NCBI RefSeq assembly: GCF_004339015.1
Contig: NZ_SMFQ01000003.1
Location: 930,001-994,000, forward strand
Length of the DNA: 64,000 bases
DNA from: Cocleimonas flava
GTDB taxonomy: Bacteria; Pseudomonadota; Gammaproteobacteria; Thiotrichales; Thiotrichaceae
Direction: 5' to 3'
Position 1 is the stretch's first letter. The number at the start of each line of letters is the position of its first letter. Below, one piece after another: positions 47,668 to 63,387 of this stretch. The translations under genes were made by a program, and so were the position numbers. A model generated the notes under the pieces. That model worked only from the letters and a program-made list of their open reading frames with translations. It searched no databases and was not told where the DNA came from.

Positions 47668-49263
47668 ATGCCTAGAAATAAACTCATACAAACAGAGAAT
47701 AATCAAACACGTGATAATGTCTTTGAAAATATAGCCGACCATCTGCCTGGAATGGTTATTCGCTGTATGAATAATAAGCAGTGGGATATGTTATTTATCA
47801 GTCGTGGGGCTTACGAACTGACAGGTTATACTGCAGAAGAGTTGATGTCTGAAAATGGTCAAAAATTCTCTTTATTAATTTTTGAAGAAGATCAGGCGCG
47901 TATCTGGCAAGAAGTACAAACAGCGGTCAAACAGGAAAAGCCTTTCGAAATTATTTATCGTTTTAACAGCAAAAATGGCAAGCAGAAATGGGTCATGGCG
48001 AGAGGTCAGGCTATCTGCACGGATAAGTACTACGAGAATCCCAAAGCCGCTACTTCTGAACTCATTCTAGAAGCCATCCTGCTTGATATTACCCAGCAAA
48101 AACAGACCGAACTTGAACTGCGACAAAACAAAAAATTACAACGCAGTATTCTGGATTATTCGATTGAAGGCATTCTGATCCATCGCGACTTGAAGCCTCT
48201 GTTTATCAATCAATCATTTTTAAAAATGCTGGGCTACGATAGTTATCAGGAATTATTGAAGTTAGATTCCATCACTTCACTGATTTCACCACCATTTCGT
48301 GAAAGCATGAAGACCTTTGCAGAGGCTCGAATGAAAGGCGAGGATGCCCCGGAAGAATATGAATTCGAAGCTTTGCACAAAGATGGCACGAAACGCTACT
48401 TGGAAATCAAGTCAAATGTCATTGACTGGCATGGAACACCCGCCATATTAAGTACCATTTTTAACATTACACAACGCAAAATTGCTATGGAACAGGCAAA
48501 ACAACAACGTGAGCAATTAGCCCACACCAATAGAATAAATATGATGGGTGAAATGACGGCAGGAATTGCACACGAACTTAATCAACCACTTACTGCCATT
48601 GTTAACCGTTGTTCTGCGGCAAAAAACAGAATCGAACGCGATAATCCAGACCTGGAAAAAATTAAAGAAGCTTTGATAAGTATCGAAGAACAGGCAATGC
48701 GCAGTGGCAAAATTATTAAACAGCTACGATCGATGGTGAAATCAAATAATTCCCAACTAGAAAAAATCAACATCAACGAGCTACTCAATACCTGCCTTAA
48801 ATTCTTTCAAATGGAAGGTCTGTTTCATAGCGTCGATATCATCACCAATATTGCTCCTAACCTGCCAGAGGTAAAGGGTGACCCGATTCAGATACAACAA
48901 GTGGTATTAAACCTGATTCACAATGCCAACGATGCGATGCAACACATCCCCAAGGATGAGCGCTGTTTAACACTAACCGCCTTACAACACGATGACAGCG
49001 CTGTTCAAATTTCTGTAAGTGATTGCGGAGAAGGTATCGAAAAAGAACAGGAGACCAAGCTATTTGACTCTTTCTTTACCACCAAAAGCACCGGTATGGG
49101 CATGGGTTTATCCATTTGTCGTACGATTATCGATTCGCATAATGGACAACTCTGGTTTAGCCAAAACCCCGAACAAGGCATAACGTTTCGTTTTACTCTG
49201 CCTATTCATACCGCTAAAGAAGAGTCTAAAAATCAAACAGATAACATTGAGTCGAGGGAATGA
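47668..49263 (+). CDS. PAS-domain sensor histidine kinase (FixL-like, soluble)
   Basis: 531-residue kinase without membrane segments, so probably cytoplasmic. Two PAS domains (about residues 18-140 and 155-275, the second with GYDSYQELLKLDSI), an H-box GEMTAGIAHELNQPLTAIVNR with phosphorylated His302, and an ATPase domain with N-box NLIHNANDAM, SDCGEGI and GMGMGLSICRTI. Each PAS ends in WVMARG or YLEIKSN followed by a PAC-like segment. No obvious heme or flavin ligand can be named. The 3' end overlaps the response regulator start by 4 bp, so they form a cognate pair. The signal may be redox, oxygen or energy state. Confidence 0.9.
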   Translation: MPRNKLIQTENNQTRDNVFENIADHLPGMVIRCMNNKQWDMLFISRGAYELTGYTAEELMSENGQKFSLLIFEEDQARIWQEVQTAVKQEKPFEIIYRFNSKNGKQKWVMARGQAICTDKYYENPKAATSELILEAILLDITQQKQTELELRQNKKLQRSILDYSIEGILIHRDLKPLFINQSFLKMLGYDSYQELLKLDSITSLISPPFRESMKTFAEARMKGEDAPEEYEFEALHKDGTKRYLEIKSNVIDWHGTPAILSTIFNITQRKIAMEQAKQQREQLAHTNRINMMGEMTAGIAHELNQPLTAIVNRCSAAKNRIERDNPDLEKIKEALISIEEQAMRSGKIIKQLRSMVKSNNSQLEKININELLNTCLKFFQMEGLFHSVDIITNIAPNLPEVKGDPIQIQQVVLNLIHNANDAMQHIPKDERCLTLTALQHDDSAVQISVSDCGEGIEKEQETKLFDSFFTTKSTGMGMGLSICRTIIDSHNGQLWFSQNPEQGITFRFTLPIHTAKEESKNQTDNIESRE

Positions 49264-49880
49264 TAATGACTAATCAAACACAGACTGTATTTATTGTCGA
49301 CGACGATCAAGCCGTTCGAGATTCATTGGCAGATTTAATGGATTCAGTCGGTATCAATGTAGAAACCTATGCCACTGCCAATGATTTTCTGGGTCAATAT
49401 ACTTCTGATCGTTTGGGTTGCCTGATACTGGATATACGTATGCCGGGTATGAGCGGTTTGGAGCTACAACAGGAATTGATTCGACGTGATACTGTGTTAC
49501 CTATCATCTTCATCACGGGTCATGGTGATGTGCCTATGGCGGTTCAGGCAATACAGGCTGGCGCATTAGATTTCATTCAAAAACCGTTTCGGGATCAGGA
49601 TTTACTTGACCGTGTTAACTACGCATTGAAAAGCTGTGACTCTCAACAAAATAATCAGCAACAAACGCAATCTGTGAAAAAACATATTCATAACCTAACG
49701 CCACGAGAGCATCAGGTCATGGAAATGATTGTTGAAGGTAAAGCCAATAAAGTGATTGCGATTGACCTTGGATTGAGTCAACGCACTATTGAGGTTCACC
49801 GTAAGAACGTGATGCAAAAACTAGAAGCACGCTCATTGGCTGAATTGGTTAGAATTGTGACTCAAACCGGACTGGCTTAA
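49260..49880 (+). CDS. FixJ/StyR-type response regulator
   Basis: 206-residue two-domain regulator. Receiver domain with acidic pocket VDDDQ, phospho-acceptor Asp58 in CLILDIRMPGMSG and lysine in FIQKPF. LuxR-type helix-turn-helix LTPREHQVMEMIVEGKANKVIAIDLGLSQRTIEVHRKNVMQKL (about residues 141-183). TIEVHRxNVMxKLxAxSLAELVR is typical of the FixJ branch. Start at 49260 or 49266 (both ATG). It is likely to control the arc, HdeD, lipoprotein, hsp20, usp and nhaA genes through the TACGTA/ATCTMCGRAT motif seen before them. Confidence 0.9.
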   Translation: MIMTNQTQTVFIVDDDQAVRDSLADLMDSVGINVETYATANDFLGQYTSDRLGCLILDIRMPGMSGLELQQELIRRDTVLPIIFITGHGDVPMAVQAIQAGALDFIQKPFRDQDLLDRVNYALKSCDSQQNNQQQTQSVKKHIHNLTPREHQVMEMIVEGKANKVIAIDLGLSQRTIEVHRKNVMQKLEARSLAELVRIVTQTGLA

Positions 49881-59160: not shown

Positions 59161-59190
59161 CGTATTTGTGAATCCGTAGATAAACGTATC
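59161..59190 (-). promoter_or_regulatory. FixJ-type regulator motif before hsp20
   Basis: Minus strand TACGTTTATCTACGGATTCA, about 80 bp from the hsp20 start. Shares ATCTACGGATT with the 50911 site. Confidence 0.58.
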
Positions 59191-59241
59191 TGGGGTGTGG
59201 GATATACTTAGAGAAATTAAAAAACAGTACAAATGAGAAGA

Positions 59242-59914: not shown

Positions 59915-60370
59915 TTAAGCGGCATCTGCATGCACGACCAGAACGTCACACGGTGCTTTTTGCTGTACTTTTTTGGTATCAAGCTCTGGTGAAATGGATA
60001 CACTATTTTCTTCGTGTTCTCCCATAATAACGAGATCAGCCTTGATATCTCGGGCAACCTTTATGATCACATCCTCAGTCGATTCCTTAGACAAAGTGAT
60101 CATGGGTATCATCCGCAAAATAGGAATTGAACGCGCAAAAGCTTCAAGACGTTGGCGATTGTCAGCAATGATATTTTTATTGAGATCTTCGTCTTTACTG
60201 GATTCCAGGGTTTCGTTAGCCTGAGTGTTTTCCTGCGGATACTCCTTCACCACATGCAACAAGGTAATTCTTGCGTTGAAATGGCCTGCAAGAGTAACGG
60301 CTTTTCGTGCGACAACTTCACTGAATTTCGAAAAATCTGTGGTCAGTAAAATGTGTTGATAAGCTTTCAT
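59915..60370 (-). CDS. Universal stress protein (UspA type)
   Basis: 151 residues from the ATG at 60370 (GGA 9 nt upstream); an ATG at 60409 adds a 13-residue basic stretch outside the family and is unlikely. Starts KAYQHILLTTDFSKFSEVVARKAVTLAGHFNARITLLHVVKE; ends DVLVVHA. The ATP-binding loop G-2x-G-9x-G(S/T) is missing (GEHEENSVSISPELDTKKV), so it belongs to the non-ATP-binding group. A cytoplasmic stress protein often induced by energy limitation, fitting the ADI and N-ATPase genes nearby. Confidence 0.9.
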   Translation of the reverse strand: MKAYQHILLTTDFSKFSEVVARKAVTLAGHFNARITLLHVVKEYPQENTQANETLESSKDEDLNKNIIADNRQRLEAFARSIPILRMIPMITLSKESTEDVIIKVARDIKADLVIMGEHEENSVSISPELDTKKVQQKAPCDVLVVHADAA

Positions 60371-60451
60371 TTTATTTTTCCACTGTCTCCTATATAAATT
60401 TCTAACCATCGATTCGATTAAATCGACGCCTCCTTCATTCGCTAATCACTA

Positions 60452-60487
60452 GTGACTAGTCTCTAGTCACTAATCACTAATCACTAA
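60452..60487. repeat. Hairpin with TCACTAA tandem repeats
   Basis: GTGACTAG (60452-60459) pairs with CTAGTCAC (60463-60470), followed by three perfect copies of TCACTAA (60467-60487). It lies in the usp 5' region (about 80-120 bp before its start). Confidence 0.65.
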
Positions 60488-60550
60488 TGATTTTTTGTTC
60501 GTTCTTTTTAATGAATTATCAGATATATACAGTAAAGACTAAATGCGGAG

Positions 60551-60566
60551 TTATTCGTAGATGCGG
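60551..60566 (-). promoter_or_regulatory. FixJ-type regulator motif before usp
   Basis: Minus strand CCGCATCTACGAATAA, 181 bp from the usp start. Matches the shared ATCTMCGRAT core. Confidence 0.5.
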
Positions 60567-60627
60567 TGTGGAAACTACTTAGTTTTCACTACCGACTATC
60601 TGGAAAGGGAATTTCTGGAATGAAATT

Positions 60628-60658
60628 GGCACCCCCCTACTTAGAGGCGTTTTTTTTT
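60628..60658 (+). repeat. Dispersed C-rich repeat, copy 17
   Basis: GGCACCCCCCTACTTAGAGG then CGTTTTTTTTT, in the 616-bp gap 60371-60986 between usp and nhaA. Confidence 0.75.
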
Positions 60659-60711
60659 GTATGTTTTTTTGTATGTTTTTTTTACTTCATCATTACGCAT
60701 GAATTACATAT

Positions 60712-60760
60712 TCAAAACTACGTAGTTATCACAGCTTTTCTAAGCACATCTCCGAATATT
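60712..60760 (+). repeat. 49-bp regulatory repeat, copy 1 (before nhaA)
   Basis: TCAAAACTACGTAGTTATCA ... CACATCTCCGAATATT. Identical to 62991-63039 except for one base. Contains CTACGTAG and the ATCTMCGRAT core, so it is probably a regulator site kept at two promoters rather than a mobile repeat. Confidence 0.8.
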
Positions 60761-60826
60761 GTATGCACCCCAATATTGTTAATGTAAGTCTAGGTTATTC
60801 GACAAATAAACAAATAGTTTAGCCCG

Positions 60827-60893
60827 GATTCATAGGCCTTCCTTCCTATTGAATCTTTTAATCATCTTCTGATCTTTAGAAGGTGATTTTTTT
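60827..60893 (+). promoter_or_regulatory. nhaA leader with two hairpins, the second terminator-like
   Basis: Hairpin 1: GATTCATAGG/CCTATTGAATC (60827-60855). Hairpin 2: ATCATCTTCT/AGAAGGTGAT (60861-60887) followed by seven T residues. It lies 93 bp before the nhaA start and downstream of the regulator motif, the position of a transcription attenuator. Confidence 0.6.
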
Positions 60894-60986
60894 ATGGTGT
60901 CGATTTAATGCTTGTTTAGATGTTTTACTTTTCAAAACTTGTCTTACGGGGTTTGTCTTTCTGGTTTTAATGATAGAGATGGGACT

Positions 60987-62930
60987 ATGAAAAATCACTT
61001 GATACCAGCGTTTGGCGCAGACAATGAGCTGTTCTACGTTAAGGGTAATCCGAATAATAATCTGGTCGCTTTCGTTGACTATACCTGCCCTTATTCACGT
61101 CGCCTTCGATCTGTTTTAGAAAGATCATCCGAGAAGTTCAAACACCTGAATCTTACTTTAGCTATCCGCTTGGCACCAACTGAACAGCGTCGTACTGAAT
61201 CTGCTGAATTAGCCATACGAGCCGCTATTGCCGCAAACAAACAGGGTAAGTTTCCAGCGATGCATGATGCGCTGTTTGAGGAACAACCAGAGTATTCACA
61301 AGACAGTTTAATTAAACTCGCAGAACATTTGGGGCTGAGCATTGACCAGTTTCTAACCGACATGATGTCGCCTGAGACTGATGAGAAAATAAAACACGAT
61401 CAACAATCCGCAGCCGCATCAGCCGTCCTACCGCAGACACCGATGCTGTTTATAGACGGCCGCCTTTACCGTGGTGTATGGGACGACACTGCCATTTTGG
61501 AGTCCGTTGAACGTCCGCTGGGAGTTCGACTGCGCATTGCCAGCAACGAATTCTTTGAATGGGCGGCATCCGCAGGGCTTGTTTTAGTGATTGCGACACT
61601 TGCCGCCTTGCTGATCGTCAATCTTGGCTGGGAACAACCCTACGAAAATATCCGAAAATCATTAATAGGCATCTACTTCGGTCAAAATTTTCAACTTGAA
61701 TTGACGCTAGAGGCTTTCATCAATGACGCATTGATGGCTATTTTCTTCTTGATAGTAGGCATTGAAATCAAACGAGAAATACTCGATGGGGAATTATCAA
61801 ATCCAGCCAGTGCAGCATTACCTCTGTTTGCAGCGGTTGGCGGTATGCTGATACCTGCCGCTATCTATTACTTGATAAACGCAGGACAAACCACGGCACA
61901 TGGCTGGGGAATACCGATGTCGACCGATATTGCATTCACCCTAGGCATTTTGGCCTTACTGGGTAGCCTTGTACCAACGTCGTTGAAGGTATTCGTTTCG
62001 GCACTCGCAATAGCAGATGATATTGGCGCTATTCTTGTTATCGCACTTTTTTATAGTAATGGGTTCCACTTCGATTCCTTTCTATTTGCAGCTGGTATTT
62101 TTGCAGTAATGATAGCGATGAATAGTGCGCGTATTTATTCATGCACGCCCTATATTATTCTGGGTGTTGTGCTGTGGTATTTTATTTATGAAAGCGGTAT
62201 TCACGCGACATTGGCTGGTGTATTAACAGCGATCGCTATTCCGTCGAGACCATCTGCGCAAGTCATCGGAGCTGCAGCCCAGGCCGATGCACTAATCAAA
62301 CATGAAATAAACAAAGGCGGAACGACAATAGGATCAAAAACCGTTCTGATACTCGAAAATATTGTCGAACGGCTTAGAGGCCCCGGGTTTCATCTGCAAT
62401 ATGCATTAGAGAACTGGAATAATTTTTTCGTGCTTCCTCTATTCGCATTTTTTAATACCGGCATCTTAATTATCGGCGCTCAGTTTTCCATCCTCCAACC
62501 GGAAGTACTCGGGGCGATGCTGGGTCTGGTTTTGGGAAAACCCATTGGCATATTATTGTTTGTCTTCATTTCCTTAAAATTTGGCTTCGCAAAACTCTCT
62601 CCTGAAATCAACTGGCTGCATTTACTTGGTGCAGGTTGTCTTGCAGGCGTCGGTTTTACCATGTCGATATTCATCGCTTCAGCTTCATTTTCGGGTGAAC
62701 AACTACAGGCTGTAAAACTAGGCGTACTCATTGCATCGCTGATAGACGCCAATATCGGTATCGTCATTTTATTATTTGCCGCGAAAAAAAGCCGTAACTC
62801 CGCCAGCCCTGCGCTTGAGATTCCAGAGGCAATCCTGGAAGAGATCAAAGAAAAAGAACAGACAAACGAACAGATTACAAAAAATAGCACTGAAAATGGT
62901 ACTGAAAAAGACACAAAGAAAAGCCAATAA
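60987..62930 (+). CDS. nhaA: DsbA-like domain fused to Na+/H+ antiporter NhaA
   Basis: 647 residues from the ATG at 60987; an upstream ATG at 60912 adds 25 residues with no family support. N-terminal thioredoxin/DsbA-like domain (about residues 10-180) starts KGNPNNNLVAFVDYTCPYSRRL, with CPYS where DsbA has CPYC or CPHC. C-terminal NhaA domain (about 190-600) has 11-12 membrane segments: DALMAIFFLIVGIEIKRE, MSTDIAFTLGILALLG and the ion-binding aspartates in ALAIADDIGAILVIALF. A charged tail of about 35 residues follows. It exchanges sodium for protons; the fusion occurs in several bacteria, with unknown purpose for the first domain. Confidence 0.92.
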   Translation: MKNHLIPAFGADNELFYVKGNPNNNLVAFVDYTCPYSRRLRSVLERSSEKFKHLNLTLAIRLAPTEQRRTESAELAIRAAIAANKQGKFPAMHDALFEEQPEYSQDSLIKLAEHLGLSIDQFLTDMMSPETDEKIKHDQQSAAASAVLPQTPMLFIDGRLYRGVWDDTAILESVERPLGVRLRIASNEFFEWAASAGLVLVIATLAALLIVNLGWEQPYENIRKSLIGIYFGQNFQLELTLEAFINDALMAIFFLIVGIEIKREILDGELSNPASAALPLFAAVGGMLIPAAIYYLINAGQTTAHGWGIPMSTDIAFTLGILALLGSLVPTSLKVFVSALAIADDIGAILVIALFYSNGFHFDSFLFAAGIFAVMIAMNSARIYSCTPYIILGVVLWYFIYESGIHATLAGVLTAIAIPSRPSAQVIGAAAQADALIKHEINKGGTTIGSKTVLILENIVERLRGPGFHLQYALENWNNFFVLPLFAFFNTGILIIGAQFSILQPEVLGAMLGLVLGKPIGILLFVFISLKFGFAKLSPEINWLHLLGAGCLAGVGFTMSIFIASASFSGEQLQAVKLGVLIASLIDANIGIVILLFAAKKSRNSASPALEIPEAILEEIKEKEQTNEQITKNSTENGTEKDTKKSQ

Positions 62931-62970: not shown

Positions 62971-62990
62971 ATAACATTTGATTAATAGAA

Positions 62991-63039
62991 TCAAAACTAC
63001 GTAGTTATCACAGCTTTTCTAAGCATATCTCCGAATATT
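62991..63039 (+). repeat. 49-bp regulatory repeat, copy 2 (before the 79-residue gene and clc)
   Basis: One mismatch to 60712-60760 (C to T in the CAYATCTCCG block). It ends 109 bp before the start of the small gene at 63148. Confidence 0.8.
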
Positions 63040-63147
63040 AAGACAAATCAACAATCGGTATTCTAAAAACCATTGATTCATCTTTACTCTCAAGCGAAGC
63101 ATGAATCATGTCAGATTGGTTTTTTACTCTCACAAAGGAATGAACAC

Positions 63148-63387
63148 ATGGATAACTTGATGAACCAGGTTTTAAATAATATACCTGAGATATTAAAACG
63201 TGCAGATGAACCTTCAACGACGATTGCAGATAAGGATTATTCCTTTGAGAAGTGGCAACCCTTGATGGCTACGATGAAACCTTTTCTAAACGAAGAAGTA
63301 ACGCGTCTGGGCATATCGACAGAAGGAAAATCTGAAATGGATTTGGTGAAAGAAGTATTCACGACTCAAGAAAAACTGAGTATGTGA
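63148..63387 (+). CDS. Small conserved-looking acidic protein
   Basis: 79 residues from the ATG at 63148, which has AAAGGA 8 nt upstream; the longer frame from 63073 lacks a ribosome-binding site. Sequence DNLMNQVLNNIPEILKRADEPS..., helical, no signal peptide or membrane segment. I do not recognise a family. It lies between the 49-bp regulator repeat and the CLC gene (60 bp), so it is probably co-expressed with the channel as part of the stress regulon. Confidence 0.65.
   Translation: MDNLMNQVLNNIPEILKRADEPSTTIADKDYSFEKWQPLMATMKPFLNEEVTRLGISTEGKSEMDLVKEVFTTQEKLSM

Follow-up and report, generated by a model that had tools for sequence, protein, structure and literature searches.

A candidate small RNA gene with a C/U-rich hairpin loop and an intrinsic terminator ahead of nhaA in Cocleimonas flava

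We describe a structured element that lies ahead of nhaA in a 64,000-nucleotide stretch of the Cocleimonas flava genome (the window). The analysis suggests that its two hairpins are probably the body and the terminator of a small RNA (sRNA) gene of ~102 nt that carries a C/U-rich loop and would stand under FixJ-type control. In our best reading the element represents a new family of a known kind of RNA; if this is true, it adds an sRNA family without an Rfam match at the searched loci and points to a specific regulator candidate, to both ends of the RNA and to a loop motif, all of which can be tested. The main rival is that the hairpins form an attenuated leader of nhaA. Among the titles and abstract openings returned from an open-access library, none names the RNA, which is not proof of its absence from print.

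Results

Two hairpins and an intrinsic terminator

An earlier note on this DNA, made from the sequence alone, had reported two consecutive hairpins, the second followed by seven T residues, between a putative regulator site and nhaA. Both hairpins are present (60826-60856 and 60860-60888), as is the T run (60887-60893), two of whose seven T lie inside the stem. The start codon of nhaA is the ATG at 60987, and a 56% identical homologue (L071) also has an ATG at the aligned position. The features of this segment are as follows.

60826..60856, + strand: hairpin 1, with 11 pairs, one bulged T and the 8-nt loop CCTTCCTT
60837-60844, + strand: C/U-rich loop of hairpin 1, CCUUCCUU
60860..60893, + strand: intrinsic terminator, with a 13-pair stem (60860-60888), a 3-nt loop and T7
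60792..60893, + strand: predicted noncoding RNA of ~102 nt, its 5' end taken from a -10-like hexamer and its 3' end from the terminator
60987..62930, + strand: nhaA with an N-terminal DsbA-like thioredoxin domain (Na_H_antiport_1 E 7.8e-129, DSBA E 4e-12)

The 73-nt segment 60824-60896 folds with -23.4 kcal/mol compared to a mean of -11.1 for shuffled sequences (z -5.08), with 0 of 200 shuffles as good, and a terminator scan over both strands of 60300-61200 returned one site where shuffles lead one to expect 0.6. The claim of a structured RNA with a real intrinsic terminator is supported. For the predicted RNA as a whole (60792-60893) the fold has a z of -4.43, equalled by 0 of 200 shuffles. 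In both copies of the element that the genome contains, each of the seven bases CUUCCUU of the loop has a predicted probability of 1.0 of being unpaired.

The earlier note also considered a simple attenuator. What stands of this proposal is that a terminator is located upstream of nhaA; what does not is the alternative structure, as minimum-free-energy folding of one 200-nt leader segment with the terminator forbidden yielded no anti-terminator, a calculation that a protein-stabilised fold would escape. The terminator itself has a pair probability of 0.999, and forbidding it costs 13.3 kcal/mol. That cost, paid without gaining a rival anti-terminator, weighs against the attenuated leader, in which the FixJ-like promoter drives nhaA, the terminator holds until a signal arrives or termination leaks, and the short RNA may act as an sRNA as well. 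The same hypothesis draws support from the arrangement of the locus: nhaA is co-oriented, with its ATG (60987) 93 nt past the T run; no good nhaA promoter was found between 60893 and 60987, where a crude score reached at most 8 of 12 consensus matches, a level also seen elsewhere; and the same operator stands before a nearby 79-aa gene, whose leader has a weaker hairpin and T6. Overall we regard the attenuated leader as rather unlikely.

The window copy differs from a 3'-UTR-derived sRNA in its position (gene in front, common terminator), its nearest upstream gene being divergent. No open reading frame of at least 20 aa starts between operator and terminator in the window copy, so that there is no gene for the terminator to end, which speaks against a plain terminator with an accessory hairpin that would merely end transcripts or insulate nhaA and do nothing in trans.

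Operator and predicted promoter

The putative regulator site noted earlier upstream of the hairpins is probably the palindrome AACTACGTAGTT (60716-60727), which is real and repeated. This perfect palindrome is carried by a 61-nt direct repeat, 90% identical between 60700-60760 and 62979-63039, and the repeat is probably the shared operator/promoter of two transcription units in a stress island. The operator modules and the hexamer from which the start was placed are the following.

60717..60753, + strand: FixJ-like operator module (ACTACGTAGTTATCACAGCTTTTCTAAGCACATCTCC), 37 bp, which would drive the RNA; 1/30 mismatches (the site helped make the consensus)
60547..60583, - strand: operator module facing usp; 0/30 mismatches (the site helped make the consensus)
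62996..63032, + strand: operator module facing the 79-aa gene at 63148; 0/30 mismatches (the site helped make the consensus)
59176..59212, - strand: weak operator-like site shortly before hsp20 (start 59089); 7/30 mismatches
60780..60785, + strand: -10-like hexamer TAATGT of the predicted promoter, starting after 26 bases from the operator's end

The 30-position operator consensus was made from three window sites (those of the element, usp and the 79-aa gene) and two sites in G027, another genome of the family, which fit it with 0-1 mismatches by construction. Outside the consensus set, two places in G027 have 7/30 mismatches, one of them preceding one of the G027 versions of the element, and the HdeD-like gene of the window is preceded by a site with 8/30; the best sites in six mononucleotide shuffles of the window had 9-10 mismatches. 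The module precedes an outer-membrane-protein (OMP) gene in G027, and a second form precedes another homologue of the 79-aa gene there. The 61-nt repeat contains the 11-mer ACTACGTAGTT, which, with at most one mismatch allowed, is found at three places in the 64 kb, giving six strand-wise matches where 0.7 are expected, a number reached by 0 of 100 shuffles.

A TANNNT hexamer follows after exactly 26 bases at 5 of 9 operator sites, namely those of the window element, the 79-aa gene of the window, the OMP gene of G027, the G027 element and a G027 site facing an unknown gene, and no other of 45 offsets has it at two or more sites. The other four sites carry GATAAT (usp), AGACTA (hsp20), CATTAT (HdeD-like gene) and AGGATT (G027) at this offset. 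A sigma-70 consensus scan of the + strand upstream of the RNA returned no promoter; TAATGT is a poor match, and no good -35 was found. Placed by the -10-like hexamer, the RNA would start near 60792, that is, upstream of the hairpins and not downstream of 60893, a location which the earlier note had held to count against a structured leader.

Candidate FixJ-type regulator

The window also encodes a two-component pair that could act on the operator.

49260..49880, + strand: FixJ-type response regulator (Response_reg and GerE domains), candidate for the operator
47668..49263, + strand: PAS histidine kinase (PAS, HisKA and HATPase_c domains), the presumed partner

The regulator reaches 248.6 bits with the NCBIfam FixJ model, ~6 under the cut-off of 255, and its best match in PDB is 1yio, a 'response regulatory protein' (E 3.7e-55), followed by FixJ 5xso (E 7.8e-51). 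The kinase scores 240 bits with the NCBIfam FixL model, far below the cut-off of 850. Known FixJ SELEX motifs are GTAGTTTCCC and GTAMGTAG, and FixJ footprints at fixK extend over -69/-44 and -57/-31, as given in the available part of PMC4999443. Like the FixJ-activated promoters treated in that part of the source, the operator described here carries TAMGTAGTT, and at ~-75 to -39 from the predicted start it lies near the fixK footprints reported there (PMC4999443). It differs from FixJ sites in its second part, TCTAMGNATAWCTCC, which is absent from the motifs quoted in the same available part of PMC4999443. The sequence resemblance leads us to infer that the FixJ-type pair of the window may act on the operator at 60717-60753.

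Copies of the element

A second copy in the C. flava genome (locus L002) is 80% identical to the window copy over 65 nt (E 2e-8). It is located away from nhaA, its hairpin 1 beginning 29 nt past the stop codon of an outer-membrane beta-barrel gene, and 23 nt of hairpin 1 are identical between the two copies. The flanks tried around the two copies have no significant similarity outside ~70 nt, which makes the RNA itself the unit that is conserved. Hairpin 1 is unneeded for termination, yet it is this part that is kept identical between copies with dissimilar flanks, a further argument against the plain terminator. Two candidate interpretations were rejected: an origin of the window copy as a duplicated OMP gene end found no support, similarity beyond ~70 nt not being significant, and the BLAST matches L003-L005 were rejected as family copies because they cover the terminator alone.

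A covariance model built from the window copy alone (R1) was run against 63 genomes of the family with a threshold of E 0.1. Matches were found in 3 of the 63: the C. flava genome itself (107.7 and 49.7 bits), the sister species G011 (45.4 bits, E 3.4e-6) and G027 (32.8, 30.0 and 27.5 bits). The G011 copy occupies the same position as L002, behind the orthologous OMP gene (80% identical), and its hairpin 1 retains CTTCCTTCC while the inner stem has changed. A second model (R2), made from the window, L002 and G011 copies and searched in 12 genomes, gave these three scores of 90.9, 83.4 and 80.1 bits, which are high by construction; the three diverged versions in G027 scored 40.5, 40.1 and 32.2 bits, and everything else in the 12 genomes had at most 23.2 bits.

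One of the G027 versions (L042:1579-1501, - strand) comes after a homologue of the 79-aa gene of the window and behind an operator-like site. The gene downstream of it, a phosphoketolase by Pfam, is on the opposite strand with its stop codon at L042:1460, and as the two are convergent the RNA leads into no gene. The design of the element recurs in its predicted fold: an outer stem and a short inner stem, with a single base bulged out on the 3' side between them, lead to a C-rich loop, and the terminator follows (z -3.86). Among the listed open reading frames of at least 50 aa, none lies on the strand of the element between the operator-like site and the element, which, as for the window copy, is at odds with a plain terminator. 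We take this copy as the main argument against a function as a leader only; the operator match there is weak (7/30 mismatches), and the element may be the 3' end of the mRNA of the small gene that precedes it.

The other two G027 versions stand behind OMP-type genes, one of which exceeds the Pfam OMP_b-brl cut-off while the other reaches 24.9 bits against a cut-off of 28.7. In a survey of OMP 3' ends by eye, which took in 26 of 27 loci (L068 omitted; L059 gave no match), a C/U-rich hairpin preceded the terminator in 4 of 25: two in G027 and one each in C. flava and G011. Being behind a coding gene, the copies at L002 and in G011 fit a 3'-UTR-derived sRNA in position. The copies behind OMP genes resemble the 3'-UTR-derived CcsR and UdsB/C of Rhodobacter in ending in an intrinsic terminator, as do several of those described in the available part of PMC8625941; unlike the RNAs of that account (PMC8625941), the window copy is without an upstream co-oriented gene and would have its own promoter.

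The proposal of a specific nhaA leader is weakened. The gene nhaA does lie downstream of the window copy, but the element is found behind OMP genes in two genomes and, in a diverged version, ahead of a convergent gene in a third genome, and this retention of the element by relatives in the absence of nhaA also counts against the attenuated leader. By contrast, the location of copies at gene 3' ends favours a plain terminator, and it counts against the sRNA reading: two of the three close copies are at gene 3' ends and could be plain terminators there.

Among 369 genomes drawn from the class, 3 had a match, the C. flava genome itself and two at 29.8 and 28.6 bits. In both of these weak matches the alignment rests on the terminator, with hairpin 1 little represented or absent, which counts in favour of a plain terminator. 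Allowing at most 3 mismatches, a search for the 23-nt core in the 63 family genomes gave only the two C. flava copies; a search at the level of the order covered the same 63 genomes. The exact core pattern with T tail gave 0 matches in GTDB, a search from which the C. flava genome and those near it are possibly absent, while plasmids gave 0 matches and phages 2 records at E 0.7.

Covariation in the hairpins

The earlier note had named a lack of covariation in relatives as evidence against a structured leader. Covariation is present, but away from nhaA. In an alignment of six sequences, 11 of 23 pairs are changed on both sides and 95.2% of cells are paired; 0 of 500 shuffles reach any of five measures. 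When the pairing partner is displaced by 1-3 columns, the paired share falls to 37-52%. With three sequences, 3 of 24 pairs are changed on both sides, 95.5% of cells are paired, and 6 to 37 of 500 shuffles reach the five measures. These values are to be read with the alignment (A10) in mind, which was fitted to the structure of the model and so favours pairing; the window copy was the starting point of the model, and an alignment of six related sequences is small. Of the six copies, the three close ones retain the loop motif CUUCCUUCC; the loops of the three G027 versions are C/U-rich too but differ in sequence. For G011 the prediction leaves the motif only partly unpaired (0.31-1.0). The terminator stem shows compensatory changes in relatives. 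The stem of hairpin 1 covaries around a C/U-rich loop, which counts against a plain terminator, and taking all of this evidence together we consider that explanation improbable.

Comparison with ion riboswitches

The suggestion that the element could be an ion-responsive nhaA riboswitch is not supported, as it matches neither the nhaA-I nor the nhaA-II model of Rfam and also occurs away from nhaA. A search of the whole window with Rfam 15 at the gathering score gave 0 matches, in a run without a positive control for the nhaA-I and nhaA-II models, and with E up to 10 the segment 60300-61300 gave two matches, one to a PyrR site and one to a microRNA model, each scoring far below its cut-off. Rfam searches of 20 nhaA loci and of four loci of the element family detected no ion riboswitch. 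A Xanthine riboswitch match (54.5 bits) was recorded at L083:1884-1933 (- strand), in a Xanthobacteraceae nhaA locus.

The R2 model had no match at E 0.1 in 91 nhaA loci, which included fused relatives of the nhaA considered here, and the sole match with E up to 1 had E 0.68. The 91 loci comprise 80 from GTDB genomes and 11 from the family, a few with little upstream DNA, and leave out the family loci L020-L037. This result also disfavours the attenuated leader. The Li+-I and Li+-II riboswitches (nhaA-I and nhaA-II) are likewise located upstream of nhaA according to the available part of PMC9646797; unlike those described there, the element has no covariance-model match and occurs without nhaA (PMC9646797). 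A Li+/Na+ riboswitch of nhaA, whether nhaA-I, nhaA-II or a new class, has its position before nhaA in its favour and nothing else; against it are the lack of an Rfam match in the window and at the four family loci and the copies away from nhaA, and we give it almost no credence. If the sRNA reading is true, a hairpin and a terminator ahead of nhaA are, taken alone, no evidence for an ion riboswitch.

Proposed mode of action and possible targets

In the sRNA reading, which we prefer, a FixJ-type regulator, probably that of the gene 11 kb upstream, would bind the operator at 60717-60753 and switch on the RNA together with the divergent stress gene usp and the 79-aa gene. Hairpin 1 would expose the single-stranded loop CCUUCCUU, which is complementary to purine-rich ribosome-binding sites, and the terminator would form the 3' end of the RNA. 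The loop would presumably repress mRNAs by pairing at translation-start regions, by analogy with sX13 of Xanthomonas, which represses mRNAs with G-rich motifs near their translation starts and works without Hfq (available part of PMC3771888). Related copies might be made as 3' ends of OMP mRNAs, judging by their position, and nhaA would be reached only by read-through or from its own promoter. Several results speak against this reading: the -10-like hexamer is poor, the target search was negative, Hfq was not found in the genome, the loop motif of the G011 copy is predicted to be only partly unpaired, and the element was found in no more than 3 of the 63 family genomes.

The element is like sX13 in its stable stems and C-rich apical loops, and unlike it in having one C/U-rich hairpin and a terminator in place of the three C-rich loops described in that part of PMC3771888. 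It is also unlike sX13 in that the RNA has no Rfam match and the target search was negative. The pattern AAGGAAGG-N3-11-ATG is present 14 times in the genome, the two elements included, and its reverse 7 times; this is no convincing enrichment and concerns one exact 8-mer pattern. Loop duplexes of -9 kcal/mol or better were found for 5 of 59 window genes, fewer than the mean of 7.6 for shuffled loops; the best of the 59 by loop pairing is the usp leader GAAGGAGG (-11.2 kcal/mol), which is a lead only. A search of the C. flava genome (G000, completeness 100) for Hfq (PF17209) found none, and an assembly gap is as likely a cause as loss; Hfq is present in 60 of 63 family genomes, G011 and G027 included.

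A broader proposal, which we advance tentatively and hold to be somewhat doubtful, is that of an sRNA family under a FixJ-type system, made both from its own regulated promoters in a stress/ion-transport island and from the 3' ends of OMP mRNAs, which would link the sensing of oxygen or energy to homeostasis of the envelope and of cations; the copy next to nhaA would also set the read-through into that gene.

Neighbouring genes and repeats

Of the full-length matches to the nhaA fusion in GTDB, the one with the highest identity (56%) comes from a Rhodobacteraceae MAG, and among the nhaA matches of the family a comparable DsbA-like fusion is found only in G027 (37%). This distribution hints that the NhaA fusion may have undergone horizontal transfer. 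The 79-aa protein (63148-63387) has no Pfam or NCBIfam match; its homologues in G027 adjoin the element and the operator, the neighbour of the element being 41% identical. The leader of the 79-aa gene (63040-63135), behind the operator copy, contains T6 and a hairpin whose stem is GATTCAT/ATGAATC (z -2.28 to -2.94).

There are two exact copies of GGYGTCGATTTAAT in the window, one in the leader of usp (60417-60430, - strand) and one just past the terminator (60896-60909, + strand), in the same orientation relative to usp and nhaA, respectively; its near-matches with up to 3 mismatches number 16 against 11.9 expected, which is no excess. Upstream of usp, at 60439-60486, there are three degenerate 20-nt repeats of the CACTAGTGACTA type with a spacing of 14 nt.
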